Assembly (NCBI GenBank): GCA_028713285.1
Contig: JAQTOP010000002.1
Coordinates: 36,427 to 100,426 of the forward strand
Source of the DNA: Terrimicrobiaceae bacterium
GTDB lineage: Bacteria > Verrucomicrobiota > Verrucomicrobiia > Chthoniobacterales > JAATET01
Direction of reading: 5' to 3'
Length of the DNA: 64,000 bases
Within the stretch, counting starts at the first letter, position 1. The number at the start of each line of letters is the position of its first letter. This document shows, piece after piece, positions 13,738-35,204 of this stretch. The notes beneath the pieces were generated by a model. The model made no database searches, was not told where the DNA came from, and saw only the letters and a program-made list of their open reading frames with translations. Both the position numbers and the translations under genes were made by a program.

Positions 13738-13819
13738 GTTGCAAACGTTGGTTTCGGCGTTTATACAGACGCCACTTCCGCGTTGGCAAGACGGCGCGGA
13801 CCGCCTTTTCTTCCCGATT

Positions 13820-14590
13820 GTGAAATTCTCCGCCCTGACCTTCAACATGCAATTCGGGCAGGGGTGGGATCCGGTCGAACCGGACCGCGCACCCATCCTG
13901 CTGGACGACACCCTTGCCTTCCTCAGCCGGGAGGACGCGGACATTATCTTTTTGCAGGAGGTCGAGCGGGCGCAGCCGGGCGGGAAGCAGGTGCAGCCGC
14001 CTCCGAATTTCACGCGGCTGCACGACGCCCTGCACGAGTATCACGGCGTCTTTGCCTATCCCAGGGTGAACCCCGCCGAGCTGCCGTTCGGCATCGCGCT
14101 GGCGATTTTCGCGAAGACGCCACTGGTCGATTTCCAAGCGGTCGATTTGCCGCCTGCGCCGCTGGACTTCGAATTCGATGGCGCGCTCGTCGCTCCCTCG
14201 CACCGCCAGCTCATCGGCGCCAAGACGCGCATCGCCGGGCGGACCCTGCAGCTTTTCAACACGCACCTGCAGGCATTTTTCATGATCAATGGCTCGAGCA
14301 ACCAGCATCCCGAACAGCGCGCGCTCGTCGAGGCGGCCTTGCGCGACTCGGATGCGCCCACACTGCTCGGGGGCGATTTCAACTGCGCGCCGGGCGAGCA
14401 CCTCGTCGAGCAATTCGCCGCCGCCGGCTACCGCACCGCGCAGGATACCGAGGCCACCTGGCGGCGACGGCCCTACGTGATGGATCACCTGTTCTACAAC
14501 GCGGGCCTCAAGGTCGAGCACGTCGAGGTCCTGCCGACCCTCTGCTCGGATCACCACGCGGTGCGCGCGGAATTCCGGCTCGCGCAATAG
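13820..14590 (+). CDS. Endonuclease/exonuclease/phosphatase family protein
   Basis: The 256-aa product begins at a GTG that gives [16 protein letters not shown], the usual EEP fold start; no in-frame ATG precedes the fold except deep in antisense gpmA. Catalytic landmarks are Glu in [10 protein letters not shown], the LFNTHLQAF segment, Asp and Asn in [11 protein letters not shown], and the terminal Asp-His in [11 protein letters not shown]. The fold covers nucleases, phosphodiesterases and sphingomyelinase-like enzymes, so substrate cannot be assigned. No signal peptide is apparent. It lies 22 bp upstream of xthA, another member of the superfamily. Confidence 0.82.
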
Positions 14591-14612: not shown

Positions 14613-15383
14613 ATGCGCATTGTTTCCTGGAACGTGAACGGCCTGCGCTCGGTGCTCGGCAAGGGTTTCCTCGAATGGCTCGCGCGTGAAAATGCCGACA
14701 TCGTATGCCTCCAGGAAACGAAGGCCCGCCCGGATCAGGTCGCCGAAGTCGCATGGCCGGGGGACTACGAGCGGTTCTGGAATTCCGCGGAGAAGCCCGG
14801 CTACTCCGGCACCGCAATCTTCACGAAAGTTCCGCCGCACGCGGTGACCTATGGCCTCGGTATCGACGCGCACGACCGCGAGGGCCGCGTGATCACGGCC
14901 GAGTTCGCCGCGTTTTATCTCGTCAACGTCTATGTGCCGAATTCCCAGCGCGGCCTCGCGCGGCTCGGCTATCGCACCGAGGCATGGGGCCCGGACTTTC
15001 TCGCGTATCTCAAGGAACTCGAGCGGAGGAAGCCGGTCATATTTTGCGGAGATCTGAACGTGGCGCACCGCGAGATCGACCTCGCCCGGCCCAAGGACAA
15101 CACAAAAAACGCCGGGTTCACGCCCGAAGAGCGCGCCGGCTTCGACCGCGTGATCGCCACGGGGTTCATCGACACATTTCGCGAGTTTACGCCCGGCGGC
15201 GGCCATTACACTTGGTGGAGCTACATGAACAACGCCCGCTCCCGGAACATCGGGTGGCGCATCGACTACTTCCTCATCTCGCCCGCGCTTCGCCCCGCCC
15301 TGCGGGCGGCGGCCATTCACGCCGAAATTCCCGGCAGCGACCATTGCCCCGTGAGCATTGATCTCGACGCGCCCCTGCCCTAG
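14613..15383 (+). CDS. xthA: Exodeoxyribonuclease III / AP endonuclease
   Basis: The 256-aa protein has the ExoIII signature order: [24 protein letters not shown] (metal-binding Glu), [59 protein letters not shown] and GSDHCPVSI (catalytic Asp-His). It incises DNA at abasic sites and trims 3' blocks in base-excision repair. Sequence features are those of the ExoA/Xth subfamily with the WRIDYF element. It probably shares a transcript with the preceding EEP gene and the small membrane protein after it (9 bp gap). Confidence 0.96.
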
Positions 15384-18666: not shown

Positions 18667-19554
18667 TTACCGATTCACCTTTCGCTTTGCAAGGGCGGAG
18701 CGGGATTTCAAAGTCCCGCCCGCTTCTCTTCGCGGCCGCAGTCGATACATGCTCGGACTTTGCCCGGTCACGCGGCGAAACTGTTTGTTGAAGTATTGGG
18801 GATCGGGGATGCCCACTTTGCGCCCGATTTCGAGAATCGGAAGCCTGGTGGAAAGCAGCAAATGCCGGGCGAGTTCCATGCGGCGCAAAAGAAGATAGTG
18901 CAGGATCGTCATTCCATACTGCTGGCGGAAAAGGCGGGAAAGGGCGTTGGCGCTCCGTCCCATCGAGGCGCTTAATCCCGGAACCGTGACCTGCCGGTGG
19001 GGTGTGGCATCGATGGCGCGCCGCAGATCGGCGAGCGTCTTCTCGTGCCAGATTCCCGGCCTGGCGCGCGTTCCGCGACTCCCCTGCAAGTGAAGCCAGA
19101 GCAGGAGTTCCTGAAGCGAGGCCGAAGCCGCGGCCGCGGCCGGGGAATCCTCCGCTCCGCCGGCCTGGCGATAATAATCAATCACTTTCAGAAACCGTTC
19201 CCGCGCCGCGGCGACCAGAGGACCCGGACGGAAGTGGATCGGCAGCCGAAGGTTCGTTTTTTTCCCAGCTCCCCGCGCCGGATAAAAATGGACGCACAAA
19301 TGCTGGCCGCTTTCCCGCAATTCATAGACGGATTCCCTGTTTTCCGGCGAGAGCGTCATGTCACCCGGTTGAAGGTGGAAGCAGGTCCCTCCGATCCAGA
19401 CCTTGCCCGCATAATCGTGGAGATGCACGGCGATGAGGGAATCCGAGTAACCCCGGTTGCAGCCCGGCACATTCATCGGGAATCTTCCCGCACTGCCGAC
19501 GACAGGAAGGTGGCGGGCAGGCCATGCGATGAATTTCGGCTCAGTCTTCACCAC
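18667..19554 (-). CDS. AraC-family transcriptional regulator (first regulator of the mannosidase locus)
   Basis: The 295-aa protein has an N-terminal sensing region with cupin-like strands (GKVWIGGTCFHLQPGDMTLSPE) and a C-terminal pair of helix-turn-helix motifs at about 185-285: VTVPGLSASMGRSANALSRLFRQQYG and ILEIGRKVGIPDPQYFNKQFRRVTGQSP. The tracked start is a GTG (GTGGTG). It is divergent from the isomerase-mannosidase run that begins 109 bp away, which suggests it senses a sugar and controls that operon from the shared region. The intergenic bases showed no operator I could define. Confidence 0.88.
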   Translation of the reverse strand: MVKTEPKFIAWPARHLPVVGSAGRFPMNVPGCNRGYSDSLIAVHLHDYAGKVWIGGTCFHLQPGDMTLSPENRESVYELRESGQHLCVHFYPARGAGKKTNLRLPIHFRPGPLVAAARERFLKVIDYYRQAGGAEDSPAAAAASASLQELLLWLHLQGSRGTRARPGIWHEKTLADLRRAIDATPHRQVTVPGLSASMGRSANALSRLFRQQYGMTILHYLLLRRMELARHLLLSTRLPILEIGRKVGIPDPQYFNKQFRRVTGQSPSMYRLRPRREAGGTLKSRSALAKRKVNR

Positions 19555-19662: not shown

Positions 19663-21594
19663 ATGGCTTGGTTTACATCCCCCGACAACTGCATCAATCG
19701 TCCCCAACTTCCCGCCGGCTGGCTGGAGCAAATCATCAATGGAAGGGACGCGGTCGGCGAAACGATCGCGAAGTCCCTGCTGGCCGATCTCGACCGCCTG
19801 CAGCGTCCGTGCTTTCTTGCGCTCGACGGATACAAGGGCGCGAAGTTGCAGCCGTTTCTGGACGGAATCCGCGCGAGGCTTGAAGCGGCGGGCGTGGAGG
19901 TTGCCGCGCTGAACGTCAACGATGTCTTTCGCTCAAAGGCGGAGATAGATGAAATCGCGCGGCCTTGCGAGAAGCCGGAGGATCCTTCGTTCGGACGGGT
20001 GTTCGCGGGCAACATCGAGGACTTGATTGATCCGGCGAAAGTCCGGGCGACGACGGAGCGTTGGGAGAAACTGCGCGCGGCCAAGGGCAGGCGCACGGTG
20101 CTGATTTGTCACGGCGTTGGGGCGGGTCTCGCGCTGTGGCGGCATTTGTTTGACCGCGCGGCCTTTTGCGACGTGACGCGGGAGCAGGTCATCATTCGTT
20201 CGGAGCGGGGCGGGCTTTTGCCGGTGGGGGAGGACGTGTCCGCCGGCTATCCGTTCAAACGGATCTACTACTTCGAATACCCGCTGCTCAACCGGCACAA
20301 GAAGCAACTCCTCAAGAGCATCGACTGGTATATCGACGACTCCGGCGAGGAGGACCCAAAGCTTGTGCCGGCCGAGGTCTATCACGCGCTGATCACCGAG
20401 CTGGCGGGCCGGCCGGTCTGTTTCAAAGTCTTTTACATGCCGGGGATGTTCGGCGGCACGGAGTTCTCGAAGCGGTTCAATGTGCCGGGGCTGCCGAACA
20501 ATAGCTGGGACTATGAAATCAGCGTGGGCGACAATCATTTGCTCATCGATCCGGGCGATGGACGGATATTGGAAATGCCGTTTTACAATTTGATCTGGGA
20601 GCAGCCGTTGCGCTTTTTGGGGGCGTATTCCAGCGCGACTTATCCCGACCATTTTCCCATCGCCATTTATATGCAGGACGGCTGGTTCGCGGATCCGAAA
20701 GAGCCCGGATTCAAGCGGACCCACATGCCGAATCACATCCACCCCGACACCGCCTACTGTCGCGAGCATTTCAACGAGCCGATCGGGCGCTATGAAACCT
20801 ATTACATCGTGCGTGCGGACGAGGGCGCCTGCACGATGCATGGCTTCAAGGACGACGCGGACATCGATGCCTACATCGGCGAGGTCAGAAAATCGGCGGA
20901 GACCCACGAGGAATTCGACTGGCGCAAATATATCCACGAGCACCCCAGCAAGACCGGCGAGTTGCATCAGCTCCCGCCCGGCACCGTGCATGGAACGGGT
21001 GGGCGGCAGGTGATCCTGGAGATCGATACGAACCCGAGCCGCGAATCGACCGAGTATTCGTTCTTTCTCTACGACTATTGCCGGCCCTGTTTCAACTATG
21101 AGAAGCTCGACATGACCGGCAAGCCGCTGAAACTCACGGTCGAGCACAGCCTCGCCATCATGCGCCGCAACCGGCGGCAGAAATACATGGCGGAAAAAGT
21201 CCGGCCTGCGCCCGTTTGCATTCGCTCGGGGGAGGACTGGCGGGAAATGTCATTCCCGATGCATTACAACATGCCCTACCAGATCAACCGGTTCGAGTTT
21301 AAGACGAAGGTCGAGGATGATACGCGGGATATGTTTCATTGCATCGCGCTGACACTCGGAACCAAGGTGCGCGTTTATTCCAAGCGCGATCCTTCCAACG
21401 AATTCGTCCTCGAGGACTGCGACAACATCGTGCTGCCGGCCGGCTTCGGTCCGTATGTCCTGGAGAATCTAGGTGACGGCCCGTGCGAGATCATCAAGAC
21501 ATTTCTTATCACCGAACCGCGGGCGCACATCGACAAGGAGCAGGAGGAGAAAGATTGGGGCGTGGATCCAGACGGTCCGGAAAAGGTGTCGTGA
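19663..21594 (+). CDS. Class I mannose-6-phosphate isomerase-like protein with N-terminal extension
   Basis: The 643-aa protein has two parts. Residues 1 to about 230 form an alpha/beta region (RPCFLALDGYKGAKLQPFL, RTVLICHGVGAGLALW) of a kind seen in long PMI-like proteins, with no intact P-loop. The C-terminal half resembles cupin-fold phosphomannose isomerases: FYMPGMFGGTEFSK, HMPNHIHPDTAYC, YETYYIVRADEGACTMHGF, then QLPPGTVHGTGGRQVILEI, which would give the zinc His/Glu ligands. Ordinary ManA is about 390-430 aa. Fructose/mannose phosphate interconversion is the family reaction, but this subfamily is not proven to act on the phosphate. It heads the same-strand glycan-degradation run. Confidence 0.7.
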   Translation: MAWFTSPDNCINRPQLPAGWLEQIINGRDAVGETIAKSLLADLDRLQRPCFLALDGYKGAKLQPFLDGIRARLEAAGVEVAALNVNDVFRSKAEIDEIARPCEKPEDPSFGRVFAGNIEDLIDPAKVRATTERWEKLRAAKGRRTVLICHGVGAGLALWRHLFDRAAFCDVTREQVIIRSERGGLLPVGEDVSAGYPFKRIYYFEYPLLNRHKKQLLKSIDWYIDDSGEEDPKLVPAEVYHALITELAGRPVCFKVFYMPGMFGGTEFSKRFNVPGLPNNSWDYEISVGDNHLLIDPGDGRILEMPFYNLIWEQPLRFLGAYSSATYPDHFPIAIYMQDGWFADPKEPGFKRTHMPNHIHPDTAYCREHFNEPIGRYETYYIVRADEGACTMHGFKDDADIDAYIGEVRKSAETHEEFDWRKYIHEHPSKTGELHQLPPGTVHGTGGRQVILEIDTNPSRESTEYSFFLYDYCRPCFNYEKLDMTGKPLKLTVEHSLAIMRRNRRQKYMAEKVRPAPVCIRSGEDWREMSFPMHYNMPYQINRFEFKTKVEDDTRDMFHCIALTLGTKVRVYSKRDPSNEFVLEDCDNIVLPAGFGPYVLENLGDGPCEIIKTFLITEPRAHIDKEQEEKDWGVDPDGPEKVS

Positions 21595-21680
21595 GGGAGG
21601 GCTTCGCGTTCCTACCTTCTTTGTGACATTTCTTCCTCGCTTGAGCTTCTCCAGAACGGCGAAGACAAGTTCGTTCTTCC

Positions 21681-23825
21681 ATGAAGATCGTTCACATCGT
21701 TTTCAACTCCCACATCGACCCCGTCTGGCTTTGGCCCTGGCAGGCGGGGCTGGATGCCTTGCTCGCGACCTGCCGCATCGCCTGCGACATGCTGGATCGG
21801 CATCCCAGCCTGATATACAATCGGGGAGAGGCGTGGGTGTACCGGCAGATCGAGCTGATCGATCCTGACCTTTTCTCCCGAATCAAGGCTCATGTTCATG
21901 CCGGCCGGTGGGAAATCGTGGGCGGCTGGTGGATTCAGCCCGACTGCAACCAGCCCAGCGGCTTTGCCCTCGAGAAACAAATCGAGCTGGGAAGGGAGTT
22001 CTTTACCTCCCGCTTCGGGCACTTTCCAGAGGTGGCCTACAATGTGGACAGTTTCGGCCACGCCGCGACCCTTCCCGGCTACCTGGCAACCCACGGCCAG
22101 AAGTATTATGTGATGATGCGCCCGCAGGAGCATGAAAGGGCGCTTCCGGCCCGGCTCTTCCGCTGGCGCGGGTACCCCGGGGGCCAGGAAGTGACCGCTT
22201 TCCGGATCGCAGGCAGTTACAATGCGGGCGATATCAAATGGGAGCACATCGACAAATCCCTGACCGAATTGCCGGAAGGCATTCGGGATACCATGTGCTT
22301 TGTCAGCGCGGGCGATCATGGGGGAGGCCCCACCGAAAAACAAATCGCGTGGATTCAGGAAAACCAGCACGCGGTGGACGGCGTGAAGCTCGAATTCTCC
22401 TCCCCGGCCCGGTTCTTCGCCCGGGTGGCACCACAAATTCCGAGCCTCCCTCTCGTGACGGGAGAGCTGCAAATGCACGCCATCGGATGCTATTCCGTTC
22501 ATCGCCAGATAAAGGCCGGACTGCGCCGGGCCGAAGACCTGATGCATCAGGCCGATTCCATTCGCAGCCGGCTGGGGAACCGCGCCGCCTCGCTGCCGGA
22601 TCTGCGAAGAGGATGGGAGCAAATATGCTTCAATCATTTTCACGACACTCTCGGCGGGACGTGCATTCCCAGCGCCAACCTTCAGGCGATCGACCAGATT
22701 GGAGAAGCGGCGTCCCTTGCCGGCGAAAACCTCCAGTTGGGATTGCGCATTCTCCTGGCGGATCTCCCCGAGAATCCCGCGCACCGGATGGTGGTTTACA
22801 ATCCAGGCCCGCGGGACTTCGGCGGCTATTTTGAAGCGGAACCGTGGACGGAGGGCATGCCCTGGAAAAACGTGCGCATCCTCGACGAAAAGGGGAAGAC
22901 CGTTTCGGGACAACTCGTCCACACCGAGGCGAGCTGCGGGGGGATGCACCGGGTACTTTTTCCCGTCCAGGTTCCCGCCGGAGAGCGGCGCGTGCTTCAT
23001 TTGCGCCGCGACCTCAAACCCGCCCACCCAGCCGCTCCGGACGCCATCGTCAAAGGAAAGACGCTTCAAAACCGCCTGGGCGTCACCGTGGTTCCGGGTG
23101 CGCGCACGGCGCTGGTCTTCGGCTCGAAAAGCGCGGGGAACACCCTGCGTCCCGAGTTGGAACTGATCGACGATCCTTCCGACACCTGGTCGCATCGGAT
23201 CGACCGCTATGATGAAAAGGCCGCCGCCCGGCCCAGGTGGGATCGCGCGCAATTCCTCGATCATGGGCCGTTGATGGCCTCCTTTCTACAGACGGGCGCC
23301 ATCTCTCAATCCCGTCTGCGAGCCGAGTATCGCGTCCACGCCCGCCGTTCGTGGGTGGAGCTGCGATTGCAGGTCCACTGGATGGAGAAGCACAAGCTCC
23401 TCAAGCTGGTGCTGCGGCTGCCCGATCTGGGGACGGAACGGATGGACGGAATTTTGGGCGGACAGTTGACCCGGCCGAATTCCGGCGCGGAGAGTCCCTT
23501 GCGGGATTGGACACTTTTTTCCTTGGAAAATGGAGGGAAGCTCGCGGTGGTGTGCCCCGACGTTTACGCCCTGGATGCGACGAAAAGGCGCCTTCGCCTC
23601 ACGCTGCTGCGCAGTCCGCTCCTGGCCCACCACGAGCCGAATCCGGGAACGGATCCCCGCGCGACGATCGCGGATCAAGGCGTTCACGAGTTCCGCTTCC
23701 TTTTTCGTGTCGGCCCGCGTTTGCGTCCCGAGGATCTCGAACACGAAGCCTGGCAATTGCGGGAGCCGCCCCTGTATGCCGACACGACCAGGGGAATGCC
23801 CGCCAGCTGCTGGGCGGGTCTGTAG
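21681..23825 (+). CDS. Glycoside hydrolase family 38 alpha-mannosidase
   Basis: The 714-aa protein starts directly in the GH38 catalytic domain: FNSHIDPVWLWPW provides zinc-binding His and Asp, and YNVDSFGHAATLPGYL contains the nucleophile Asp. GDHGGGPTEKQI and the FNHFHDTLGGTCIP helix-bundle segment follow, then beta-sandwich domains to the end. No signal peptide is seen, so cytosolic action on imported oligosaccharides is likely. GH38 enzymes release alpha-linked mannose with retention; bacterial members vary in linkage preference. It is 86 bp after the isomerase and 13 bp before the mutarotase-like gene. Confidence 0.9.
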   Translation: MKIVHIVFNSHIDPVWLWPWQAGLDALLATCRIACDMLDRHPSLIYNRGEAWVYRQIELIDPDLFSRIKAHVHAGRWEIVGGWWIQPDCNQPSGFALEKQIELGREFFTSRFGHFPEVAYNVDSFGHAATLPGYLATHGQKYYVMMRPQEHERALPARLFRWRGYPGGQEVTAFRIAGSYNAGDIKWEHIDKSLTELPEGIRDTMCFVSAGDHGGGPTEKQIAWIQENQHAVDGVKLEFSSPARFFARVAPQIPSLPLVTGELQMHAIGCYSVHRQIKAGLRRAEDLMHQADSIRSRLGNRAASLPDLRRGWEQICFNHFHDTLGGTCIPSANLQAIDQIGEAASLAGENLQLGLRILLADLPENPAHRMVVYNPGPRDFGGYFEAEPWTEGMPWKNVRILDEKGKTVSGQLVHTEASCGGMHRVLFPVQVPAGERRVLHLRRDLKPAHPAAPDAIVKGKTLQNRLGVTVVPGARTALVFGSKSAGNTLRPELELIDDPSDTWSHRIDRYDEKAAARPRWDRAQFLDHGPLMASFLQTGAISQSRLRAEYRVHARRSWVELRLQVHWMEKHKLLKLVLRLPDLGTERMDGILGGQLTRPNSGAESPLRDWTLFSLENGGKLAVVCPDVYALDATKRRLRLTLLRSPLLAHHEPNPGTDPRATIADQGVHEFRFLFRVGPRLRPEDLEHEAWQLREPPLYADTTRGMPASCWAGL

Positions 23826-23838
23826 GGCTTTCAAGAAT

Positions 23839-24972
23839 ATGAATGGTCAAAAACGCGTTATCTCAGGACAGGAGAGCTGGACATTTTCCACGAAGGACGT
23901 CGAAGCCGCCGTGACCCGGCAGGGGGGGCATCTGGCCCCGGTGCGTTTTCGCATCGGCGGGCGATGGGTCGAGCCGTTCGATATTGCTCCCTGGGCGGAG
24001 GAGAAGGTGGCTCCGGGCACGCACCAAGTGCTCCGCGTGATGCGTGGCGATTTTTTCTGCATGCCATTTGGCGGCAATGAAACACCGAGCCACGGTGAGC
24101 AGCATCCTCCCCACGGTGAAACGGCGAATGCGCGATGGAGGCTCGAATCGGGCTCCGCCCAGCATCTGCATCTTTCCCTGCGAACTTCCATCCGGGAAGG
24201 CAGGGTGGATAAGCGGATCCGGTTGATTCCCGGCCACACCGCTCTCTATTTGCAGCATGTGATCTCGGGAATGACGGGCCCCATGTGCCTGGGGCATCAC
24301 GCCATCCTCAAAATCCCGGAGGGAGCCGCCGGGCGGGTGAGCCTGAGCCCGTTTCGATTCGGTCAGGTTTTCCCTGGTCAACTTGAGGAGTCGGCGAAAG
24401 GGGGATACTCGATCCTGAAGCCGGGAGCGAAATTTAAAACCCTGTCGCGCGTCCCTCAAACGGACGGAAAATGGGCCGACCTCTCCGTCTATCCCGCGCG
24501 CGAAGGCTACGAAGACCTCGTCCTGATGGCTTCGGAAACCACACTTCCGTTTGCGTGGACCGCGCTCACCGTGCCGGAGGAAAACCATGTGTGGTTTGCT
24601 TTGAAAGATCCCCGCGTGCTGCCTTCGACCGTATTCTGGATATCAAACGGAGGGCGGCACTACGCCCCATGGAACGGCCGGCATCGGCGCGCCATCGGGC
24701 TGGAGGAAGTGGTCGCCAATTTTCATTACGGCCTGGCAGAGTCGGCCAGGGCCAACCCGCTGACGCGCGCGGGCACGCCAACCTGCGTGCGGCTCGATCC
24801 ACAACGGCCGTTCGCGGTGAACTATATCATGGCGATGGCCGAAATTCCGCGCGGCTTTGACATCGTGAAAACCATTCATTCGTCCGCCGACGGAAAATCC
24901 GTCCGCCTTGCCTCGAAATCGGGGAAGTCCGTTTCCGTGGCGGTGGATACCTCCTTCCTTTCCACCCAATAA
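23839..24972 (+). CDS. Galactose-mutarotase-like (aldose-1-epimerase fold) protein
   Basis: The 377-aa product is beta-rich. Features resembling the galactose mutarotase superfamily include AVTRQGGHLAPVRFRIGGRWVEPFDIAPW near the N-terminus and FFCMPFGGNETPSHGEQHPPHGE with paired histidines. The recurrent antiparallel strand pattern (LRTSIREGRVDKRIRLIPGHTALYLQHV) also fits. Proteins of this fold epimerise sugars or bind them. ATG 23839 gives MNGQKRVISGQESWTF and sits 13 bp after the GH38 stop; the tracked ORF starts within the mannosidase. It probably handles the anomers released by its neighbours; the specific reaction is not assignable. Confidence 0.6.
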   Translation: MNGQKRVISGQESWTFSTKDVEAAVTRQGGHLAPVRFRIGGRWVEPFDIAPWAEEKVAPGTHQVLRVMRGDFFCMPFGGNETPSHGEQHPPHGETANARWRLESGSAQHLHLSLRTSIREGRVDKRIRLIPGHTALYLQHVISGMTGPMCLGHHAILKIPEGAAGRVSLSPFRFGQVFPGQLEESAKGGYSILKPGAKFKTLSRVPQTDGKWADLSVYPAREGYEDLVLMASETTLPFAWTALTVPEENHVWFALKDPRVLPSTVFWISNGGRHYAPWNGRHRRAIGLEEVVANFHYGLAESARANPLTRAGTPTCVRLDPQRPFAVNYIMAMAEIPRGFDIVKTIHSSADGKSVRLASKSGKSVSVAVDTSFLSTQ

Positions 24973-24985
24973 TTCCGTGCAAAAT

Positions 24986-27175
24986 ATGCGAACCAGCCAC
25001 CGAAACTACGAACAAAGCATGGGGCTTTGGATCAATGAGCCGTTGCTGCTTCATCCCGAAGAGATCGACCGATCCATCCACGAGCTTGCCGATGCGGGAT
25101 ACGACACCGTGCGGCTGTTTGTCCGGCACTCGAACTTTACCCTGCGCTGCCCGGAGGTTGTGGAAGCGGTTCGGCGCGCCGTGAAAACGGGCCATGAGCG
25201 GGGCATGCGCCTCGCCCTGGACTGCGAGCCGCACGAGCTCGTGGGGCGCGACATGGGGCGGCAGTTTCCCGGTGAAATGAGCAGCAAGCTGTTGCGGCAA
25301 TCGGTGCAAGTCGTGGATGGCCACTGGATCATGCGGGTTGAGCCGCCGTCGTTGGGCGGCTATGTGGGAGCCCCTCTGGATGGGGTTGAGGCGGCCTATT
25401 TGCGCGTGGAAGGGAACTTGAAGAAGATCGGCCTCGGCGACCATACCGTCAGTCGCGGTTTCCAGTGGTATCGCAATGGAAACGTCCACCGCGAGCTGTT
25501 CTATCGGGAAGGCGTGCCGGCGAGTCCCCACCCCGTTCACGAATTGCGCGGCTGCCTGCCAGGCAGCGTCAATGGGGAGCTGATCGTTTATCTGCGGTTC
25601 AGCGTGAGGACTGTCGTGGATTTCTGGTCGGAGGGTTGTCGCAGGTATTACGAGGAGCTTCTCGAATGCTACCGCGACATTCCGCTCGACGGCGTGGGTT
25701 GGGATGAACCTGCGGTCGCTGGCGATTGGAAGTGCTACCATTACGGCGCCGGCTTCGCCGCCGCATTTGAGAGGCTCAATGGCTATGCGCTGACTGACAG
25801 ACTTTACCTGTTGGATGAGCCGGGCATGTCCGCGGAAGCCGCCAAGGTCCGCCTCGATTACTACCGGACGCTTAACGAAGGCCTCGCGAGGGCGCAGGCA
25901 AATCTGATCGCCAAGGCGCGCTCTCTATTCGGCAAGGATCTTCTGCTCGGGACGCATCACACATGGCAGGGCGAAGCCGGCATCAACGATTACCGGTCCG
26001 GCGCGGTGGATTACTTCCGGTTGAATGACTGCATGGACGCGGGCTACACGGATGTTCCCCAATGGGACCCCGAATCGGTGGCGTATGCCTACACCTTGGG
26101 ATCCTCGCTGGGGCGGCTCACGCCATCCGGCGAAGCCGAGGTCAATACCTGGCACTGGATGCCCACGGTCAGCAACATTCACCACAACGTGAACTTGATG
26201 ACGTTGATGAATATCACCTGGTTCAACATCTGGTTCGGCCGCGACTGCGACTGCGTCATGCAGCAGGGACATTACACCTGGCCGACGACGGTGGCTTATA
26301 TGCAGCGCCACCGCGAGTTTCAGCGGCAGATCGGAAAGCGCCGCCCGGTGGCGGACGTGGCCATCTGGCACGGCTGGGAAGGCGTGTGTGCATGGAACAA
26401 GGCCAGTCTGGCCAACACTCACAAGACATTTTGTCTGAACACCAGCCGGCTGCTTATCGACCGCAGCGTCGCCGCTGATTTTATCGACAGCCGCCTCCTC
26501 GCTGGCAGCCGCATCGAGAATGGCCGGCTCGTGAACGATCTGGGCAGCTACCGTGTGCTTGTGATGCCTTACGCTCTTGTGCTGCCGGGCAAGGCATTCG
26601 AGGTGTGCGCCGCGTTCAGCCGCGCCGGAGGACGCGTCATTTTTGTCGGCACACCCGTTGCCGCCGACGATCAGGGATGCTCGCTCACCGACGCATTTGC
26701 CGGATTGCTTGGCATTCCGCCAATGACCGCGGAGCATTACATGGCGGGACTCGATGCCGTCTGCACGATGCCGGACTGCCGCCTGCAACGGCTGGAAGTC
26801 TGCCGTCCGCTTGCCGCCGGCCTGCCGCGCGCGCTGGTTTCCTGCGAGGGCGAGACGCACGGCGTGGTCAGCGAGGAGGGAAACGCGGTGTTCCTGACGG
26901 ATCTCGATCCTCAGGAACGCCTGCTCGAACGCATCGAGGATGCGCTGTCGGACGACGTGCAGGCGCACGGCAGCAATTTGCTCTGGCGGCTTTACCGGGG
27001 CGAGGAAGGGGACCTGCTGGTCGTGGTCGCGCGCGAAGACCGGCCCTTGCGCGGCATGGTGCGCTGGCAAGGCAGGTTGATCGAGCTGACCGACGGCTCG
27101 GTGGGATTATTTGAAATTCGCGGCGGAGAGCTGTCGGTCAAAGGCGATGTCGTCTGGAAGCCCCTGTCAATATGA
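24986..27175 (+). CDS. Putative TIM-barrel glycoside hydrolase of unassigned family
   Basis: The 729-aa protein begins at ATG 24986 (MRTSHRNYEQSMGLW), 13 bp after the previous stop. The N-terminal half reads like a clan GH-A barrel: HELADAGYDTVRLFVRH, a strand ending GVGWDEPAVAGDW with a candidate acid/base Glu, and LLLGTHHTWQGEAG. Near residue 510 a second region, YRVLVMPYALVLPGKAFEVC and RAGGRVIFVGTPV, resembles the glutamine-amidotransferase-like trimerisation domain of GH42-type beta-galactosidases. No standard family was confidently recognised and the nucleophile is uncertain. No signal peptide is visible. The operon position implies activity on the same glycan as the mannosidases. Confidence 0.55.
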   Translation: MRTSHRNYEQSMGLWINEPLLLHPEEIDRSIHELADAGYDTVRLFVRHSNFTLRCPEVVEAVRRAVKTGHERGMRLALDCEPHELVGRDMGRQFPGEMSSKLLRQSVQVVDGHWIMRVEPPSLGGYVGAPLDGVEAAYLRVEGNLKKIGLGDHTVSRGFQWYRNGNVHRELFYREGVPASPHPVHELRGCLPGSVNGELIVYLRFSVRTVVDFWSEGCRRYYEELLECYRDIPLDGVGWDEPAVAGDWKCYHYGAGFAAAFERLNGYALTDRLYLLDEPGMSAEAAKVRLDYYRTLNEGLARAQANLIAKARSLFGKDLLLGTHHTWQGEAGINDYRSGAVDYFRLNDCMDAGYTDVPQWDPESVAYAYTLGSSLGRLTPSGEAEVNTWHWMPTVSNIHHNVNLMTLMNITWFNIWFGRDCDCVMQQGHYTWPTTVAYMQRHREFQRQIGKRRPVADVAIWHGWEGVCAWNKASLANTHKTFCLNTSRLLIDRSVAADFIDSRLLAGSRIENGRLVNDLGSYRVLVMPYALVLPGKAFEVCAAFSRAGGRVIFVGTPVAADDQGCSLTDAFAGLLGIPPMTAEHYMAGLDAVCTMPDCRLQRLEVCRPLAAGLPRALVSCEGETHGVVSEEGNAVFLTDLDPQERLLERIEDALSDDVQAHGSNLLWRLYRGEEGDLLVVVAREDRPLRGMVRWQGRLIELTDGSVGLFEIRGGELSVKGDVVWKPLSI

Positions 27176-27218
27176 GCCACCCGCAGAGCAAAAACAAAAG
27201 GCCCTTTCAGCAGCCACG

Positions 27219-29882
27219 ATGAAAGAAAACATCGACACGATTTACCTCGTTCACCACACCCACACCGACATCGGATTCACAAACGAGCAGCCGGTGGTGA
27301 TGGATTTGCACGCGCAATTCATCGACCAGGCCATCGATCTTTGCGAGCAGACGGCGGACTATCCCAAGGGCAGCGCGTTGAAGTGGACCTGCGAGGCGAT
27401 GGGGACCGTGCTCTACTGGCTGCGGCATCGTTCCGACAGGCAAATCCAGCGGTTCGTGGATCTCGAAAAGCAGGACCGCATCGAGGTGACGGGAACTTTC
27501 GGCGTATTCAGCCAGTGCATCCCGCACGAGGCGATGTATCGGCAATTCTATCCCGCGGAAAAGCTCCGCAAGGACTACGGGATCAAGGTCACCACCGCGA
27601 TGCATTGCGACATCAACGGCCACAACTGGGGCATGGTGGAGGCGATGCTGGATTGCGGCATCGACGCCTTCAGCATGGCGATCAATGAAAACGTCGGACG
27701 CGCCGCATTCAATCGACAGCGGCCCAACGGCTTTTATTGGGAGGGAGCCAGCGGGAGGAAGATTCTGAGCTGGAACGGCCTGCACTATAACAGCAATAAC
27801 TACTTCGGATTTCCCGGCATCTGGGAACGATCCTATCGGGGTCTTCCCAGTGACAAGCAGGAGGCCGTGAAGTTGCTGCCCGCCTTCCTCGACTGGCTGA
27901 AGAAGCGGCAATATCCGTATCCGTTTTCCCTCTTCCAGGTGACTTACACCACCTTTGTCGATAACGGCCCGCCCGATCCAAGGCTGGCGGATTTTGTGCG
28001 CTGGTGGAACGAAAACGGGCATGCGCCCCGGATGGAGATCGTCACGCTGCGCGAGTATTTCGATGCGCTTCGCCGCCAACCGGCCGGCCTGCTGCCAACG
28101 CATCGCGGGGAGTGGACCGACTATTGGAATATCGGCGCGGCTTCCACCGCCTACGAAACTTCGCTGAACCGCCGCACCTATCATCGCCTCTACGAATCCG
28201 AGCTGGCCCTCGCCTGGGGCGATCCCATCCACGCGCTCGCACGCCGGCCCGAACTTCGGGAGTCCTGGGAAAACGCATGGTGGTATGACGAGCACACCTG
28301 GGGCGCCAACACGAGCATCGTCCAGCCGTTTCGCCAGCCCGCACGCAGCCAGTTGAACCAGAAGCTTAACTTCGCCTATCGCGCCCGAAGTTTTGCGCAA
28401 CTTACCCGGCTGGAAGCGATTGACCGCGTGGCCCGGTCGCTGCGAGGCGAGGGGGATGGCTACTACGTCATGGCCCTGAACCCGCTTCCGTGGGAACGCG
28501 AGGAACGCCTGCAATTTCCCTCCACATGGCTCGACACCGACGCCGCTGCAACGGTCAGCCATGTGCAATGCCTCGACCGCATCGAAGGTTCCGAACAACA
28601 GGGCCTGGGCGACCAGGCCATGGCAGTGTCGGAACCGGTCAGGATTCCGCCGATGGGCTACCGTCTGTTTCCCGCTGCTAGACTCAACGCGCAGACTGTT
28701 CCTCCGTCGCAAGGCAGGCCGGTGCGCGTGGCCAAAGCCGAGAACTCCTGGCTACGGGTCGAACTGGACGCGAAACGGGGCGGCATCAAGAGCCTCTTCG
28801 ACAAGAAGCGGCGGCGGGAGTGGGTCGATGCAAAACATGAATATTCGCTGGGCGGGTATGTCCATGAGCATTGCGAAGCTGGCAAGAATGCGACGGATAT
28901 GTATGGCGGACGGATGCAGATTTTCCTCGAGGCCGACTGGAGCAAGTTCATGGGCTATCGCGGCTGGAACGCGAATTGGCCGGCGGTCCGGCGCGGTGTG
29001 ACGAAGGTCGTCTCGCAAACCGCGACGACCTTGCCGGGCCAGATTCGATTCGTTCAAAAATGCCTCGCGCCAGGCGCGAAAAACGTCGAATACGAAATCA
29101 CGCTGGCGGAGGACAAAGCGTATGTGGACCTCAAAGTCACCATCGACAAACTGTGGGACACCGCGCCGGAGGCTTGCTATGTGACCTTTCCCTTTGCCCT
29201 GCCAAAATCGCGGCCCCGCTACCAGACGGCGGGCGGTGTGGTGCGTCCACATCTCGACCAGTTGCCGGATTGCAATCAGGACTATCACACCGCGCAGCAT
29301 TGGGCGGACCTTTCGAATGACAAATGCGGCGTCACCGTCACTACGGTGGACGCTCCCAATGTGATGTTTGGCGGATTCAACCTCGCGAAGCTGTTTGACA
29401 AACCGCGTCCAAACATTCCTCCGCTGCTATTGAGTGTCGCGATGACGAATTACTACCATGTCAATTACGCGGGCGGCCAGCTTGGTTCCACGACGTTTCA
29501 TTACCGGATCTTTCCGCACGATGCCTTTGATGGGGCGGAGTCCAATCGTATCGGACAGGAGGCGGCCTTCCCGCTGATCTGCCATCCCGTCATGAATCCC
29601 GCGGGAACCCGGCCTGGCAAATCCAGTCTCCTAACCCTAAGCAATCCCGCCATCGTGCCGCTGGCAGTCAAGCCCTCCGAAGACGGCAGGGCGCTCATCA
29701 TCCGACTCTACAACCCCCTGGACAAATCCCGGTCTCTCACGGCACGCCTGTTCTCCGAACCCCGCGAAATCTGGCAGTGCGACAACCTGGAGAACGCCAA
29801 AACCCAATTGCCGCACAAGGGAGGCAAGTTTACGGCCACCTTTTCGCCGCACGCGACGCTCGCCTTTCGGGTCGTTCTTTGA
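27219..29882 (+). CDS. Second, divergent GH38-like glycosidase
   Basis: The 887-aa protein starts MKENIDTIYLVHHTHTDIGFT, where HTHTDIG matches the zinc His/Asp element of large GH38-type enzymes but differs from HIDPVW in the first mannosidase. AMHCDINGHNWGMVEAML occupies the place of the nucleophile loop. A later NAWWYDEHTWGANTS segment and long C-terminal beta domains complete it. Overall similarity to the 21681 protein is low by eye, so this is not a recent duplicate. Substrate could be a different linkage or another sugar. No signal peptide. It lies 43 bp after the unassigned hydrolase. Confidence 0.78.
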   Translation: MKENIDTIYLVHHTHTDIGFTNEQPVVMDLHAQFIDQAIDLCEQTADYPKGSALKWTCEAMGTVLYWLRHRSDRQIQRFVDLEKQDRIEVTGTFGVFSQCIPHEAMYRQFYPAEKLRKDYGIKVTTAMHCDINGHNWGMVEAMLDCGIDAFSMAINENVGRAAFNRQRPNGFYWEGASGRKILSWNGLHYNSNNYFGFPGIWERSYRGLPSDKQEAVKLLPAFLDWLKKRQYPYPFSLFQVTYTTFVDNGPPDPRLADFVRWWNENGHAPRMEIVTLREYFDALRRQPAGLLPTHRGEWTDYWNIGAASTAYETSLNRRTYHRLYESELALAWGDPIHALARRPELRESWENAWWYDEHTWGANTSIVQPFRQPARSQLNQKLNFAYRARSFAQLTRLEAIDRVARSLRGEGDGYYVMALNPLPWEREERLQFPSTWLDTDAAATVSHVQCLDRIEGSEQQGLGDQAMAVSEPVRIPPMGYRLFPAARLNAQTVPPSQGRPVRVAKAENSWLRVELDAKRGGIKSLFDKKRRREWVDAKHEYSLGGYVHEHCEAGKNATDMYGGRMQIFLEADWSKFMGYRGWNANWPAVRRGVTKVVSQTATTLPGQIRFVQKCLAPGAKNVEYEITLAEDKAYVDLKVTIDKLWDTAPEACYVTFPFALPKSRPRYQTAGGVVRPHLDQLPDCNQDYHTAQHWADLSNDKCGVTVTTVDAPNVMFGGFNLAKLFDKPRPNIPPLLLSVAMTNYYHVNYAGGQLGSTTFHYRIFPHDAFDGAESNRIGQEAAFPLICHPVMNPAGTRPGKSSLLTLSNPAIVPLAVKPSEDGRALIIRLYNPLDKSRSLTARLFSEPREIWQCDNLENAKTQLPHKGGKFTATFSPHATLAFRVVL

Positions 29883-29914
29883 AATTAAATGGGAAAATCC
29901 CCACGCTCCGCGCA

Positions 29915-31111
29915 ATGAAAACCAAGGAATTACGCATTGGAATCATCGGTTACAACTTTATGGGCAGGGCCCACTCGAATGGCTGGCTGCAGGCTGCGAA
30001 GTTTTTCGATCTCGAAAGCCTGCCGGTTCTTCAAGTTGCGTGCGGTCGCAACGGATCCGCCCTGCGCGCTTTTGCCGATCGGTGGCACTGGAAACACATT
30101 GAGACGGATTGGAAAAAGGTTGTGGAACGGGACGACGTGGATGTCATCGACATCTCGCTGCCGCAGCACCTGCACGCCGAGGTCGCCCTTGCAGCCGCGG
30201 AGGCGGGAAAGCACATCTTTTGCGAAAAGCCCATGGCACTGTCCTCCGGCGATGCCGGGCAAATGCTTCAGGCTGCAGAAAAGGCCGGCATCAAGCATTA
30301 CGTCAATCATAACTATCGTCGTTGTCCGGCCGTGCGTCTGGCGCGCCGGTTGATCGATGAAGGCAAAATTGGGCGCATTTTTCATTGGCGTGGCGCTTAT
30401 CAGCAGGACTGGATCGTCGATCCGGAATTTCCTCTCACCTGGCATCTGCGGAAGGAAACCGCCGGCACCGGCCCGCACGGCGACCTCAATTCGCACAGCG
30501 TGGACCTGGCCCACTATCTCGTTGGCGATGTAAAGTCCGTAAGCTGCTTGATGTCGAACTTCATCAAGGAGCGCCCACTGCCCGGCGAGGGCGCGGCGAC
30601 CTTCAGCGCAGGAAAAAGCACCGGTCCGCGCCGGACCGGGGAAGTCAGCGTCGAGGACGCCTCGCTCATGCTGGTGGAATTTGCCAATGGTGCCGTCGGC
30701 TCATTCGAGGCAACGCGATTTGCTCCCGGGCGAAAAAATCGCAATACCTTTGAGATATACGGCAGCGAGGGAAGCGTTGCTTTCGACTTGGAACGCATGA
30801 ACGAGCTCCAATACTTTTCCCGGCGGGATCCGGAATATGCCCAGGGATTCCGGACGATTCTTGCCACGGAATCCTCCCACGACTACATCGCGAACTGGTG
30901 GCCGCCGGGCCATACGATTGGTTATGAGCACACCTTTGTACACGGCATGGTGGACTTTATCAACGCCATCGACGGGAATCGGCCGATCGCTCCGGATTTT
31001 GCCGATGGTCTAAAATGCATCAAGGTGCTCGAGGCCGGAGCTCGATCCGCCGAAACCGGGCAGCGGGTGGCTGTTGACTCGATGCCAGCCTTGGAACGGA
31101 TAGCCTCGTAG
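29915..31111 (+). CDS. Gfo/Idh/MocA family NAD(P)-dependent oxidoreductase
   Basis: The 398-aa product starts MKTKELRIGIIGYNFMGRAHSNGW, a dinucleotide-binding Rossmann motif (GxxGxMGxxH). Next come VDVIDISLPQHLHAEVALAAAEAGKHIFCEKPMAL, with the family EKP lysine, and HVNHNYRR-like segment KHYVNHNYRRCPA. A conserved histidine in GDLNSHSVDLAHYLVGD fits the catalytic position. The family oxidises or epimerises sugars and inositols, and some members split glycosides by an oxidation-elimination route. Its place between a GH38 and an SGNH hydrolase suggests it processes a released sugar or acts as an auxiliary deglycosylase. Confidence 0.88.
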   Translation: MKTKELRIGIIGYNFMGRAHSNGWLQAAKFFDLESLPVLQVACGRNGSALRAFADRWHWKHIETDWKKVVERDDVDVIDISLPQHLHAEVALAAAEAGKHIFCEKPMALSSGDAGQMLQAAEKAGIKHYVNHNYRRCPAVRLARRLIDEGKIGRIFHWRGAYQQDWIVDPEFPLTWHLRKETAGTGPHGDLNSHSVDLAHYLVGDVKSVSCLMSNFIKERPLPGEGAATFSAGKSTGPRRTGEVSVEDASLMLVEFANGAVGSFEATRFAPGRKNRNTFEIYGSEGSVAFDLERMNELQYFSRRDPEYAQGFRTILATESSHDYIANWWPPGHTIGYEHTFVHGMVDFINAIDGNRPIAPDFADGLKCIKVLEAGARSAETGQRVAVDSMPALERIAS

Positions 31112-31122
31112 CTTCTTCCCAC

Positions 31123-32376
31123 ATGAAATTGACTCTCCCACTGCGCCTGATTCTCCTTGCGCCATCGATATTTCTGTCGAGCGACCTGCATGCCGCGCCA
31201 CTTATTCGGCCCAATGATGTGGTCGCGATCAACGGCGATTCGATTACCGCCCAGCAGCAATACTCGGTTTTTATCGAGGAATATCTCCTGGCCTGCCAGC
31301 CGGTGAAAAATGTTCGATCGATCAACTTTGGCGTGGGAGGCGCCACGGCCGGATATTTTGACGGGCGAATTGCGAGCGACATCCTGCCATTCAAGCCCAC
31401 CGTTGCCACAGCCTGCTTTGGCATGAACGACGGCCATTACCAGCCGATCAGCAAGGAAAATCAAGAGGCTTATCGCAAGGCGTATACATCTGCTTTGGAA
31501 AAGCTGAAGGCTGGCGGGGTGCGGACGATTATCGTCGGAGGACCGGGCTGCGTGGATGGAACTTATTTTCACAAGCCCGAGGTCACGGCCGATGGTTACA
31601 ATGAAACCTTGCGGGATCTGGGTGAAATCGCCCGTGGTATTGCGAAGCAGGAGGGATTCGTCTTCGCCGATGTGCATCAGGCGATGATGTCGGCGATGAC
31701 CGGGGCAAAGGCCGCCAACGCCTCCGACAGCTTTTTTAGCGGAGGTGATGGGGTTCATCCTCCGCCCAACGGCCATCTTGCGATGGCCTATGCCTTCCTC
31801 AAGGCATTAGGTTGCGACGGCGCCATCGGGACGATCACCTTCGATCTGTCGGCAGGCAGGGCGGCGGGCACTCCGGGTCATAAGGTTCTATCCATCAATG
31901 GCGGCTCGGTCGCAATTGAGAGCACACGTTATCCCTTTTGTTTTGTCGGAGATCTCGCTGCCACCAAGATCCTTCCCTACCTTCCTTTCAACCAGGACCT
32001 CAACCGATACACACTGATTGTCATGGGGCTTAAAACTTTCAAAGCAAGGGTGACATGGGGAGCGGACTCCAAAGAGTTTTCCGCCGCGGAGCTTGGAAAA
32101 GGAATCAATCTCGCCGCCGAATTTCTTAACAACCCCTTTTGCGAGCGATTCGCCGAGCTTCAGGAGTTCGTTCTTGCAAAGCAGGGTTATGAAATACCTT
32201 TGGCTCAAGGTATTTTGCATAAGACAACGCGCTTCAAAGCTCAGGAGCCAGAGCAGGGCGCCGCTTTGGATCAAATCGCGGAGACCGGCATCGATCTTCA
32301 ACACAAGCTCGCTGACCTGGCGGCTGGACGGGTTGTACCGGTGACTCATACGATCTCGATCGAGCCCGTTCCCTGA
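31123..32376 (+). CDS. Secreted SGNH/GDSL-family hydrolase
   Basis: The 417-aa product has a signal peptide (MKLTLPLRLILLAPSIFLSSDLHA, cleavage near HA-AP). SGNH blocks follow: VAINGDSITAQQQYS (catalytic Ser), INFGVGGATAGYF (Gly), FGMNDGHYQP (Asn) and GGDGVHPPPNGHLAMA (Asp-His pair). A C-terminal extension of about 170 residues is beta-rich. These enzymes cleave esters, commonly acetyl groups on polysaccharides, outside the cytoplasm. It is the last gene of the same-strand run and is the only one there with a clear export signal, suggesting deacylation of the glycan before uptake. Confidence 0.87.
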   Translation: MKLTLPLRLILLAPSIFLSSDLHAAPLIRPNDVVAINGDSITAQQQYSVFIEEYLLACQPVKNVRSINFGVGGATAGYFDGRIASDILPFKPTVATACFGMNDGHYQPISKENQEAYRKAYTSALEKLKAGGVRTIIVGGPGCVDGTYFHKPEVTADGYNETLRDLGEIARGIAKQEGFVFADVHQAMMSAMTGAKAANASDSFFSGGDGVHPPPNGHLAMAYAFLKALGCDGAIGTITFDLSAGRAAGTPGHKVLSINGGSVAIESTRYPFCFVGDLAATKILPYLPFNQDLNRYTLIVMGLKTFKARVTWGADSKEFSAAELGKGINLAAEFLNNPFCERFAELQEFVLAKQGYEIPLAQGILHKTTRFKAQEPEQGAALDQIAETGIDLQHKLADLAAGRVVPVTHTISIEPVP

Positions 32377-32397: not shown

Positions 32398-33201
32398 TCA
32401 CGGCTTTGGCCCAATAATTGCGAGGCCCTGACGCACTTTTCCCGGCCTGACTCCAAAATACTGGCGGAACACGCGGGAGAAATAAAACGGGTCGTCGTAT
32501 CCGCATTGCTCCGCCACCTCTGCAACCGACAGCTTCCCCTCGGAAAGAAGCCCTTCCGCCAATCGCATCCGCCGAGCTCGGGCATATTGCATCGGCGTCG
32601 TGTAGAACACAGACTGAAAGAGGCGGTGAAAATGCTCGGGGCTCAGATGAACCGTCCGTGCCGCGTCCCGCAGCGAGGGGCGTTTGTTTGCCTGACTGTT
32701 TAGGAATAGCAGCGCCGGCATCAGCCGCTCGTGGGACTGGCGAGCGCGGGGATCCTCCGTCGGCAGTCGCTCGAATGCCAGCCCCGCGACTTCCAGCAGC
32801 ATGGAATGAATGAAAAAGGCATCGTCCGCCGCGCGACGGGCAACGAATCGCTCGATTCGCCCACATGTCCGCTTCCATCGTTCCGCAGTGGCATTATCAA
32901 ACACTTGAACCCCGGGAAGCGAGCCCAGCCGTACGTCCAGCCACGGCGATACGAGACTGAAGTGCAGCCACTCGATGACGATCTCCGATTCGGCGCCATA
33001 GGAAACCTTTGAGTGGGGCGGGACCAGATAGAGTTGTTCGGGCGCGAGTCGAACGGTTTTCCCGCCAACTTCCACCCAGCCCCGTCCGCGCGTGGGATGA
33101 TAGAACTTGGCGGAGTCGCTCCATTCGTTTGTCCCTCCCCAGGATTCCGGACCGCGCACCGCAAGCCCTCCCGCGGAGATCTCCACGCCCATGTTGTGCA
33201 T
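32398..33201 (-). CDS. AraC-family transcriptional regulator (second regulator)
   Basis: The 267-aa protein has an N-terminal cupin sensing domain (TRGRGWVEVGGKTVRLAPEQLYLVPPHSKVSY) and a C-terminal double helix-turn-helix: SLRDAARTVHLSPEHFHRLFQSVFYTTP and VAEVAEQCGYDDPFYFSRVFRQYFGVRPG. It converges on the SGNH gene and diverges from the dioxygenase gene 69 bp away. That gap is AT-rich (atatattacatgttatt) and is the likely shared control region. It is not close in sequence to the first AraC regulator. Confidence 0.9.
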   Translation of the reverse strand: MHNMGVEISAGGLAVRGPESWGGTNEWSDSAKFYHPTRGRGWVEVGGKTVRLAPEQLYLVPPHSKVSYGAESEIVIEWLHFSLVSPWLDVRLGSLPGVQVFDNATAERWKRTCGRIERFVARRAADDAFFIHSMLLEVAGLAFERLPTEDPRARQSHERLMPALLFLNSQANKRPSLRDAARTVHLSPEHFHRLFQSVFYTTPMQYARARRMRLAEGLLSEGKLSVAEVAEQCGYDDPFYFSRVFRQYFGVRPGKVRQGLAIIGPKP

Positions 33202-34271: not shown

Positions 34272-35204
34272 TTAGTTTTTGCCTTCTGGCTGGGGTGACT
34301 GCAGCAAAGCCGTAAGTTCCGCGACCCAGGCCGCAAGGTCGGGATGCGTGGGATACGCGCGAACAAGCTTTGTCATTTCAAGGAGCCCCCGATTGGCCTC
34401 GTCGATCACAATCATGTCTCGCGCCTGACGCCAGAGGAGCCTGGGGAATTCCACTTGCGCAAAGGTGTCGCGCTGGACGTCGCCCCGGGACTTTTCGGCG
34501 TTTGCGCTCTGAAATTCGATCTGGAGTTTCCAGGTATCCAGTAGATGGGGGTCCTTCTGCGCACGAAGCGAAGTCCGAATATCCTTTTCGAGGATTCCCT
34601 CCAGCGAGCCGGCGGTCATCTCCCAATCGTGCAACTTTTCAAGTTCGCCCGTCAGCAGATTTGCGCGAACAATCGGACTCGACGTGATCGGTCGATCAAG
34701 CATCGCCCTGCCGGGGTCCGTCGCTGTCATCTCACCCCCAAACTCGCTCAGTGCTCCCGACAACGCCGTCACGTAATCCCAAAGTTCGGCAAGAGGCGGC
34801 TTGCCGTCGGAATCCGCTGCGCGCTTGAGACTGATCGCCAGATAACGCAAATGTAATCGCGCCGCCGCGGCGAACGCCTTATTCTTGGTGAGCAACGCTT
34901 TGTTATTCTCGCGCCAGGTTTGAAAGCGATACGAATCGCCTGAGTTCGCCGAAAAATCGGCGTCATGCACCGAGTCGGCGTAAAGCCGGACCGCACTGTC
35001 GTCAGATTTCGCGGCCGCGAGCAGCTTCACAGCCAGAGAATCAAAGCGCTCGCGGCGGGTATTCGCCTGCTTCGCTTGAATTGCCTTCAACTCCTTGATC
35101 AGAGCAGCCTTATCAATGACCGTCCCGTCACCGCCGGTCTGCGCATTTCCAGAACCAGCCGCGGCAATTGCCACGGCGACAACACAAAGCAACTTAAGGG
35201 GCAC
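34272..35204 (-). CDS. Exported helical protein of unknown function
   Basis: From a GTG at 35204 the product (310 aa) starts with a clean signal peptide, VPLKLLCVVAVAIAAAGSGNA, cleaved before QT; AGGA lies a short distance upstream. The tracked start at 35258 would bury the signal behind 18 polar residues. The mature part is mainly helical and rich in Lys/Glu/Ala (AALIKELKAIQAKQANTRRERFDSLAVKLL) with no recognised domain. It is divergent from the LysR gene 103 bp away. A periplasmic location is inferred. Confidence 0.6.
   Translation of the reverse strand: MPLKLLCVVAVAIAAAGSGNAQTGGDGTVIDKAALIKELKAIQAKQANTRRERFDSLAVKLLAAAKSDDSAVRLYADSVHDADFSANSGDSYRFQTWRENNKALLTKNKAFAAAARLHLRYLAISLKRAADSDGKPPLAELWDYVTALSGALSEFGGEMTATDPGRAMLDRPITSSPIVRANLLTGELEKLHDWEMTAGSLEGILEKDIRTSLRAQKDPHLLDTWKLQIEFQSANAEKSRGDVQRDTFAQVEFPRLLWRQARDMIVIDEANRGLLEMTKLVRAYPTHPDLAAWVAELTALLQSPQPEGKN

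Follow-up and report, generated by a model that had tools for sequence, protein, structure and literature searches.

A 729-amino-acid protein encoded within 64,000 nt of a Terrimicrobiaceae contig (this whole stretch is here called the window) raises the question of how to classify, and what function to assign to, a protein that resembles several glycoside hydrolases and carries the name of none. The initial annotation read it as a putative new glycosidase family in which a clan GH-A barrel is joined to a GH42-like amidotransferase-fold domain, with a candidate acid/base Glu in the motif GWDEPAVAG. Its reading frame has no internal stop and opens at an ATG (24986) that agrees with the N termini of its relatives; the antisense strand, read in the same frame register over this interval, is interrupted by stops. 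The frame lies 13 bp from the upstream stop (24972) and 43 bp from the start of the GH38-like gene that follows (27219), in agreement with the coordinates and gaps first reported. Because full-length, stop-free homologues exist across other genomes, the frame is real beyond chance, and it is a genuine gene (Table 1).

Table 1. Coordinates in the window of the gene, its predicted domains and candidate active-site residues, and its neighbors.
Feature	Position	Strand	Basis
Gene for the 729-aa protein, unnamed family sister to GH106 (outside every sampled GH106 group)	24986..27175	+	Homologue searches, profile, alignment
(beta/alpha)8 barrel with active site, residues 1-430	24986..26275	+	AF2 secondary structure; barrel-only hhalign to GH106
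Beta-rich insert past barrel strand 3, residues 98-211	25277..25618	+	AF2 strand pattern
Amidotransferase-fold (GH42M-like) domain, residues ~456-575	26351..26710	+	Pfam GH42M E 0.0053 (sub-cutoff); AF2
C-terminal beta domain, residues ~616-729	26831..27172	+	AF2
Arg47, end of strand 2, invariant in family, absent in GH106	25124..25126	+	Alignments
Asp79 and Glu81 (Asp81 in clade 2), end of strand 3, family-specific acidic pair, candidate relocated base	25220..25228	+	Alignments
Trp239-Asp240-Glu241-Pro242, end of strand 4, candidate general acid and metal ligand; D240 = D458, E241 = S459 position	25700..25711	+	Alignments, PMC6828813 numbering
His324, strand 5, BT_0986 E538 position	25955..25957	+	Alignments
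Asp342, invariant in family	26009..26011	+	Alignments
Asp356, strand 6, BT_0986 E561 position; canonical GH106 register uncertain by one residue	26051..26053	+	Alignments
Asn387, strand 7, where GH106 has its general base (BT_0986 E593)	26144..26146	+	56-sequence alignment
AraC-type regulator, divergent from cluster	18667..19476	-	Domain search
643-aa protein, mannose-6-phosphate-isomerase-like C-terminal part	19663..21594	+	PDB 1qwr E 0.0019, residues 358-475
GH38	21681..23825	+	Pfam GH38 N E 7e-44
Mutarotase-like protein, 377 aa, putative label	23839..24972	+	Sub-threshold matches
GH38-like	27219..29882	+	Pfam GH38 N E 1e-19
Gfo/Idh/MocA dehydrogenase, levoglucosan-dehydrogenase-like	29915..31111	+	Pfam, NCBIfam
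GDSL hydrolase	31123..32376	+	Pfam
AraC-type regulator, convergent at cluster end	32398..33201	-	Domain search

About 19 intact homologues were found. A single-sequence scan of GTDB contigs returned no relatives, whereas an alignment-based scan of the same contigs returned 17 records, all with full-length homologues (24 to 65% identity, no internal stops), from Lentisphaerota, Verrucomicrobiota, Armatimonadota and one Fibrobacterota bin. Among 388 genomes of the window's phylum, eight others carry a full-length homologue and one more a distant outlier (L010); seven of the 17 GTDB loci are the same genes as those in the phylum search. The family is set off by a sharp gap in profile score, with members at 765 to 1085 bits, L010 at 165 and everything else at 82 or below, nearly all of it matching through the amidotransferase-fold domain alone. 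By identity to the window protein, its members form two clades, one at 42 to 65% (clade 1) and the other at about 25% (clade 2). The distribution is patchy, since the gene is missing from the one congeneric genome sampled and from those sampled within the order. Inspection of the N termini by eye, without a predictor, revealed no signal peptide in any of the 17 GTDB members, and the family proteins are most likely cytoplasmic. The outlier (L010:673-2880), which comes from the same class as the window genome, has an apparent signal peptide and keeps the WDEP/His/Asp/Asn signature; it may represent an early or exported branch of the family.

The window protein could not be placed in a named family at the outset, and this holds for Pfam, NCBIfam and the PDB. 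The Pfam search that had been proposed as a check gave no match over the cutoff, PF02449 (GH42) included, and one weak hit, to GH42M (E 0.0053); neither NCBIfam nor PDB sequences gave a significant match. Two marginal hits, to NCBIfam AlphaRhamBT4145 (E 0.02) and to PDB 5vym (E 0.009), were set aside as clues to function, as both are restricted to the amidotransferase-fold domain. We found no paper on the family in the open-access literature, and a check for likeness to viral proteins gave no fold match with E <0.001. A CAZy number may already exist.

An AlphaFold2 (AF2) model built from an 18-row alignment (pLDDT 90.1, pTM 0.92) places barrel strands at residues 11-16, 41-46, 75-79, 236-238, ~320, 353-358, 384-389 and 410-417, which we number 1 to 8 by our own reading of the secondary-structure string. 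Together with Foldseek and the sub-threshold GH42M match, the model bears out a barrel joined to a GH42-like amidotransferase-fold domain. GH42 does appear among the top Foldseek matches in the PDB, as the first reading would have it, but the best is a GH106 enzyme, RHA-P (6q2f, E 1.7e-19); GH112 (E ~1e-17), GH42, a beta-1,2-glucosyltransferase and GH106 BT_0986 (5mqm) come next. Fold cannot by itself pick the nearest family, because TM-scores are alike (0.5 to 0.6) for GH106, GH42, GH112 and the glucosyltransferase. The same order of barrel and amidotransferase-fold, trimerisation-type domain occurs in GH164 and in the verrucomicrobial GH5 enzyme Op5Man5 (PMC8233224), which we liken to the family by architecture alone.

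Profile comparisons separate these candidates. Against GH106 alignments built from PF17132 matches within the same phylum, the full-length family profile aligned with hhalign probabilities of 99.2 to 99.7, spanning residues 15-588 at most. The barrel alone still matched GH106 (probability 97.6, E 4e-12) and did not match GH42 to any comparable degree (18.7, over 77 columns), whose similarity is limited to the amidotransferase-fold domain; GH112, represented by two sequences, gave 0.1 to 0.2, that is, no profile similarity. As the hhalign E-values are single comparisons, the gap to the two controls, GH42 and GH112, outweighs the raw numbers. On this evidence, the closest known relatives are the GH106 alpha-L-rhamnosidases, not GH42, GH5 or GH35. 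In a midpoint-rooted tree, the family, the Ram106B type, an Asp-Glu variant group and canonical GH106 each fall on one side of a branch (SH-aLRT 98 to 100), and a long branch connects the family to GH106. With L010 itself a long branch, we use "sister" in the sense of lying outside every sampled GH106 group and make no rooted claim.

We next compared active sites. The key residues of BT_0986 are D458, S459, E461 (acid), E538, E561 and E593 (base), and the Ram106B subgroup has an altered set (Asp-Glu, His, Asp) with the base retained (PMC6828813). Alignment to PDB chains confirmed the BT_0986 positions, including in 5mwk, which has Gln at 461, and the Ram106B signature (DEP, a Gly-preceded His, PG(V/I)D and the base Glu) is present in 14 homologues of 750 to 798 aa from the window's phylum. 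A joint MAFFT alignment of 56 sequences (20 from the family, 36 from GH106) assigns D240, E241, H324, D356 and N387 to the five GH106 active-site positions. The D240 column is Asp in all 56; the E241 column is Glu in Ram106B-type and variant members and Ser in canonical GH106; the H324 and D356 columns are His and Asp, respectively, in the Ram106B type. At the general-base column (BT_0986 E593), in contrast, all 20 family members have Asn and all 36 GH106 sequences have Glu. The register of D240, E241, H324 and N387 was the same in four of five alignment settings, in three of which the Asp356 column was misplaced for canonical GH106. The fifth, BLOSUM45, lost most GH106 registers and was discounted as failed, since it also broke the invariant Asp458 column.

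The family is thus closest in pattern to Ram106B-type GH106, known from Thermotoga, Caldicellulosiruptor and Thermoclostridium (PMC6828813) and present here in Verrucomicrobiota (L075-L077, L140-L149). Both have the barrel followed by the amidotransferase-fold domain, a similar length (777-798 aa in the Ram106B type), and Asp-Glu-Pro, His and Asp at the positions of BT_0986 D458/S459, E538 and E561. The family differs in having Asn387 for the base Glu, in Arg47, Asp79, Glu/Asp81 and three Trp residues, in forming a separate clade and in scoring below the Pfam GH106 cutoff. Canonical GH106 (BT_0986, RHA-P) is more distant: barrel and second domain are homologous and Asp240 corresponds to D458, but S459, E538, E561 and E593 are all different in the family, the acid position E461 is Ala, Gly or Ile, and the GH2-like C-terminal sugar-binding domain is missing. 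Residues specific to the family and invariant or nearly so are R47, D79, the acidic residue 81, W239, T323, T326, W327, T355 and W389. A set of long GH106-like proteins from Verrucomicrobiota (L011-L015, L017, L074) shows a further variant active site, in which an Asp-Glu motif is combined with Asp at both E538 and E561 and with the retained base Glu, unlike both canonical and Ram106B-type GH106.

The homologous barrel and second domain, and the Asp-Glu alternative to the E461 acid, agree with GH106 membership. We nevertheless do not count the family as a GH106 member because two other points tested came out negative: the window protein has no match to PF17132, with a best E of 0.065 in one of ten members tested, and the general base is replaced. 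Judged from sequence, it is a family related to GH106 whose active site is altered, and we hold its placement beside GH106, together with the active-site pattern, with high confidence.

These residues also decide against the clan GH-A barrel first proposed. Enzymes of this clan carry an Asn-Glu-Pro motif at strand 4. A classical retaining glycosidase akin to GH42, its acid/base being E241 and its nucleophile another Glu, would account for the resemblance of the invariant W239-D240-E241-P242 to that motif, and for an architecture and fold shared with GH42 beta-galactosidases, in which a barrel is likewise followed by an amidotransferase-fold, trimerisation-type domain. Of the barrel carboxylates, however, whose absence the initial annotation had named as grounds for rejection, one of two is gone: the strand-4 site is kept and the strand-7 site is lost to the invariant N387. 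The nearby E385, considered in its place, gives way to Asp, Val, Tyr or Phe elsewhere in the family. With the GH42 barrel profile match also not significant, the alignment largely refutes this reading, and we regard it as very unlikely. E241, the Glu of GWDEPAVAG, nevertheless appears to be the best candidate for a catalytic acid, as the initial annotation had suggested. Loss of the base Glu might also point to a catalytically dead sugar-binding relative. Two clades that are only about 25% identical nonetheless share many invariant polar and aromatic residues in the barrel, D240, E241, H324, D342, D356 and N387 among them, which a dead protein would hardly retain; catalytic death is accordingly implausible, the least probable of the readings considered.

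Our preferred reading, to which we give a probability of roughly 0.45, is that the family consists of cytoplasmic glycoside-cleaving enzymes related to GH106, metal-dependent and inverting, with E241 as the acid and a relocated base. As the GH106 base residue is lost, a hydrolase must have relocated it. An oligosaccharide would be imported and then processed intracellularly; D240, H324, D356, N387 and perhaps E241 would hold a divalent metal that binds the subsite -1 sugar through its ring hydroxyls; the leaving group would be protonated by E241; and water would make a single inverting attack, activated by a carboxylate away from the GH106 base position. That carboxylate would most likely be D79/E81 or D342/D356. 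Of these we favor D79 with Glu/Asp81, an acidic pair that no group but this family has gained. A divalent metal is suggested because Ram106B enzymes lose activity with EDTA and are activated by Co2+, Ni2+, Mn2+ or Mg2+ (PMC6828813). Taken on its own, the metal-dependent inverting hydrolase mechanism is a tentative proposal, with the odds somewhat against it.

It is possible, though we lean against it, that base loss changed the chemistry itself, giving a phosphorylase, transglycosylase or substrate-assisted enzyme on the scaffold of a metal-dependent inverting glycosidase; if so, this would be a new CAZy-level family, and the first case of a GH106-type active site put to such a use. The main rival of this kind is an inverting glycoside phosphorylase in which E241 would be the sole catalytic residue and phosphate, bound by Arg47, His324 and Thr323/Thr326/Asn387, would stand in for the base, yielding a sugar-1-phosphate and a shortened oligosaccharide. 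Inverting phosphorylases require one catalytic residue, with phosphate as the nucleophile (PMC8950772), and the uniform Asn at the base position, the gain of invariant Arg47 and the predicted cytoplasmic location are consistent with this, as is the high rank among fold matches of the GH112 galacto-N-biose phosphorylases, inverting enzymes with one catalytic residue and a similar multi-domain fold. Yet GH112 has no profile similarity to the family; GH130 uses three conserved basic residues (PMC4599007), of which only two possible counterparts, Arg47 and His324, are invariant here; the conserved new acids D79 and E/D81 would be unfavourable to phosphate binding; and no gene for handling sugar-1-phosphate was recognised in the window cluster. 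We consider phosphorolysis unlikely.

In GH20 hexosaminidases, an Asp-Glu dyad works together with a nucleophile that the substrate itself supplies, its 2-acetamido group. Asp240-Glu241 could form such a dyad, with a substrate-derived nucleophile held in a pocket of Trp239, Trp327 and Trp389; the adjacent Asp-Glu at strand 4, the lack of a nucleophile at strand 7, the three invariant Trp residues and a GH20 gene adjoining one relative would all fit. The Asp-Glu pair is also found, however, in the Ram106B-type and variant GH106 groups, and Ram106B enzymes cleave rhamnosides, which have no acetamido group (PMC6828813), making substrate assistance improbable.

What, then, might be the substrate for the metal-dependent hydrolase that we favor? 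The gene lies in a cluster (19663-32376) flanked by two AraC regulators. The GH38-like identity of the downstream neighbor stands, and the upstream gene, first described as mutarotase-like, has aldose-epimerase matches that are all sub-threshold (PDB hexose-6-phosphate mutarotase, E 0.4; Pfam Aldose_epim, E 0.077 in one of 13 members) and nothing significant in Pfam or the PDB; by these matches, the label is plausible. Its 377-aa family, which has no Pfam model, occurs in 17 of 195 genomes of the phylum (35 to 55% identity over 12 aligned loci). The 643-aa protein at the start of the cluster has no Pfam match and a long N-terminal part of unassigned kind. The nearest model for the dehydrogenase is levoglucosan dehydrogenase (376 bits against a cutoff of 650), and its product is possibly a sugar-3-dehydrogenase.

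Conserved synteny was looked for and not found: the relatives have no close homologues of these neighbors alongside them, so the neighborhood cannot define the substrate. Carbohydrate genes do, in a raw tally, lie beside many relatives: GDSL and sulfatase genes (L031, L036), a pectate-lyase-like gene (L033), GHL6 (L035), GH4 and GH35 (L039), GH20 (L042) and an MGH1/GH63-like gene (L044). A glycoside-degrading context is supported, and with the GH106 homology it makes the glycosidase role anticipated at the outset likely. The two GH38 neighbors hint at a manno-configured glycone on an oligosaccharide processed inside the cell, a doubtful proposal as it stands.

Rhamnose is doubtful as a substrate because the genome (97.8% complete assembly) lacks RhaA, GH78 and GH106, with no PF17132 match, and the organism is unlikely to break down rhamnose in the usual way. 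This absence bears on a further alternative, that the family is an ordinary GH106 subgroup of alpha-L-rhamnosidases tolerating Asn at the base position. Homology and the four of five active-site positions kept would agree with it; set against the genome content, the position outside all sampled GH106 groups and the score under the Pfam cutoff, we think it quite improbable.

What emerges is a compact, unnamed family of probable glycoside enzymes, tied to GH106 through residue matches that can be tested. Its invariant Glu-to-Asn change at the general base is a natural experiment, from which one would expect that the base has moved or that phosphorolysis has taken over from hydrolysis. The Asp-Glu/His/Asp active site of the Ram106B type is not confined to a single clade, a point relevant to any subdivision of GH106.

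Methyltransferase-type genes, two URO-D-like and one MTTB, lie near three relatives (L039:12219-13529, L042:7068-8093, L043:1187-2638), and methylated substrates are a possible theme of the family. Elsewhere in the window, a 310-aa frame (34272-35204) with no Pfam match at E 0.001 sits between PhyH and GidA genes, and two endonuclease/exonuclease/phosphatase family genes adjoin one another at 13736-14590 and 14613-15383.
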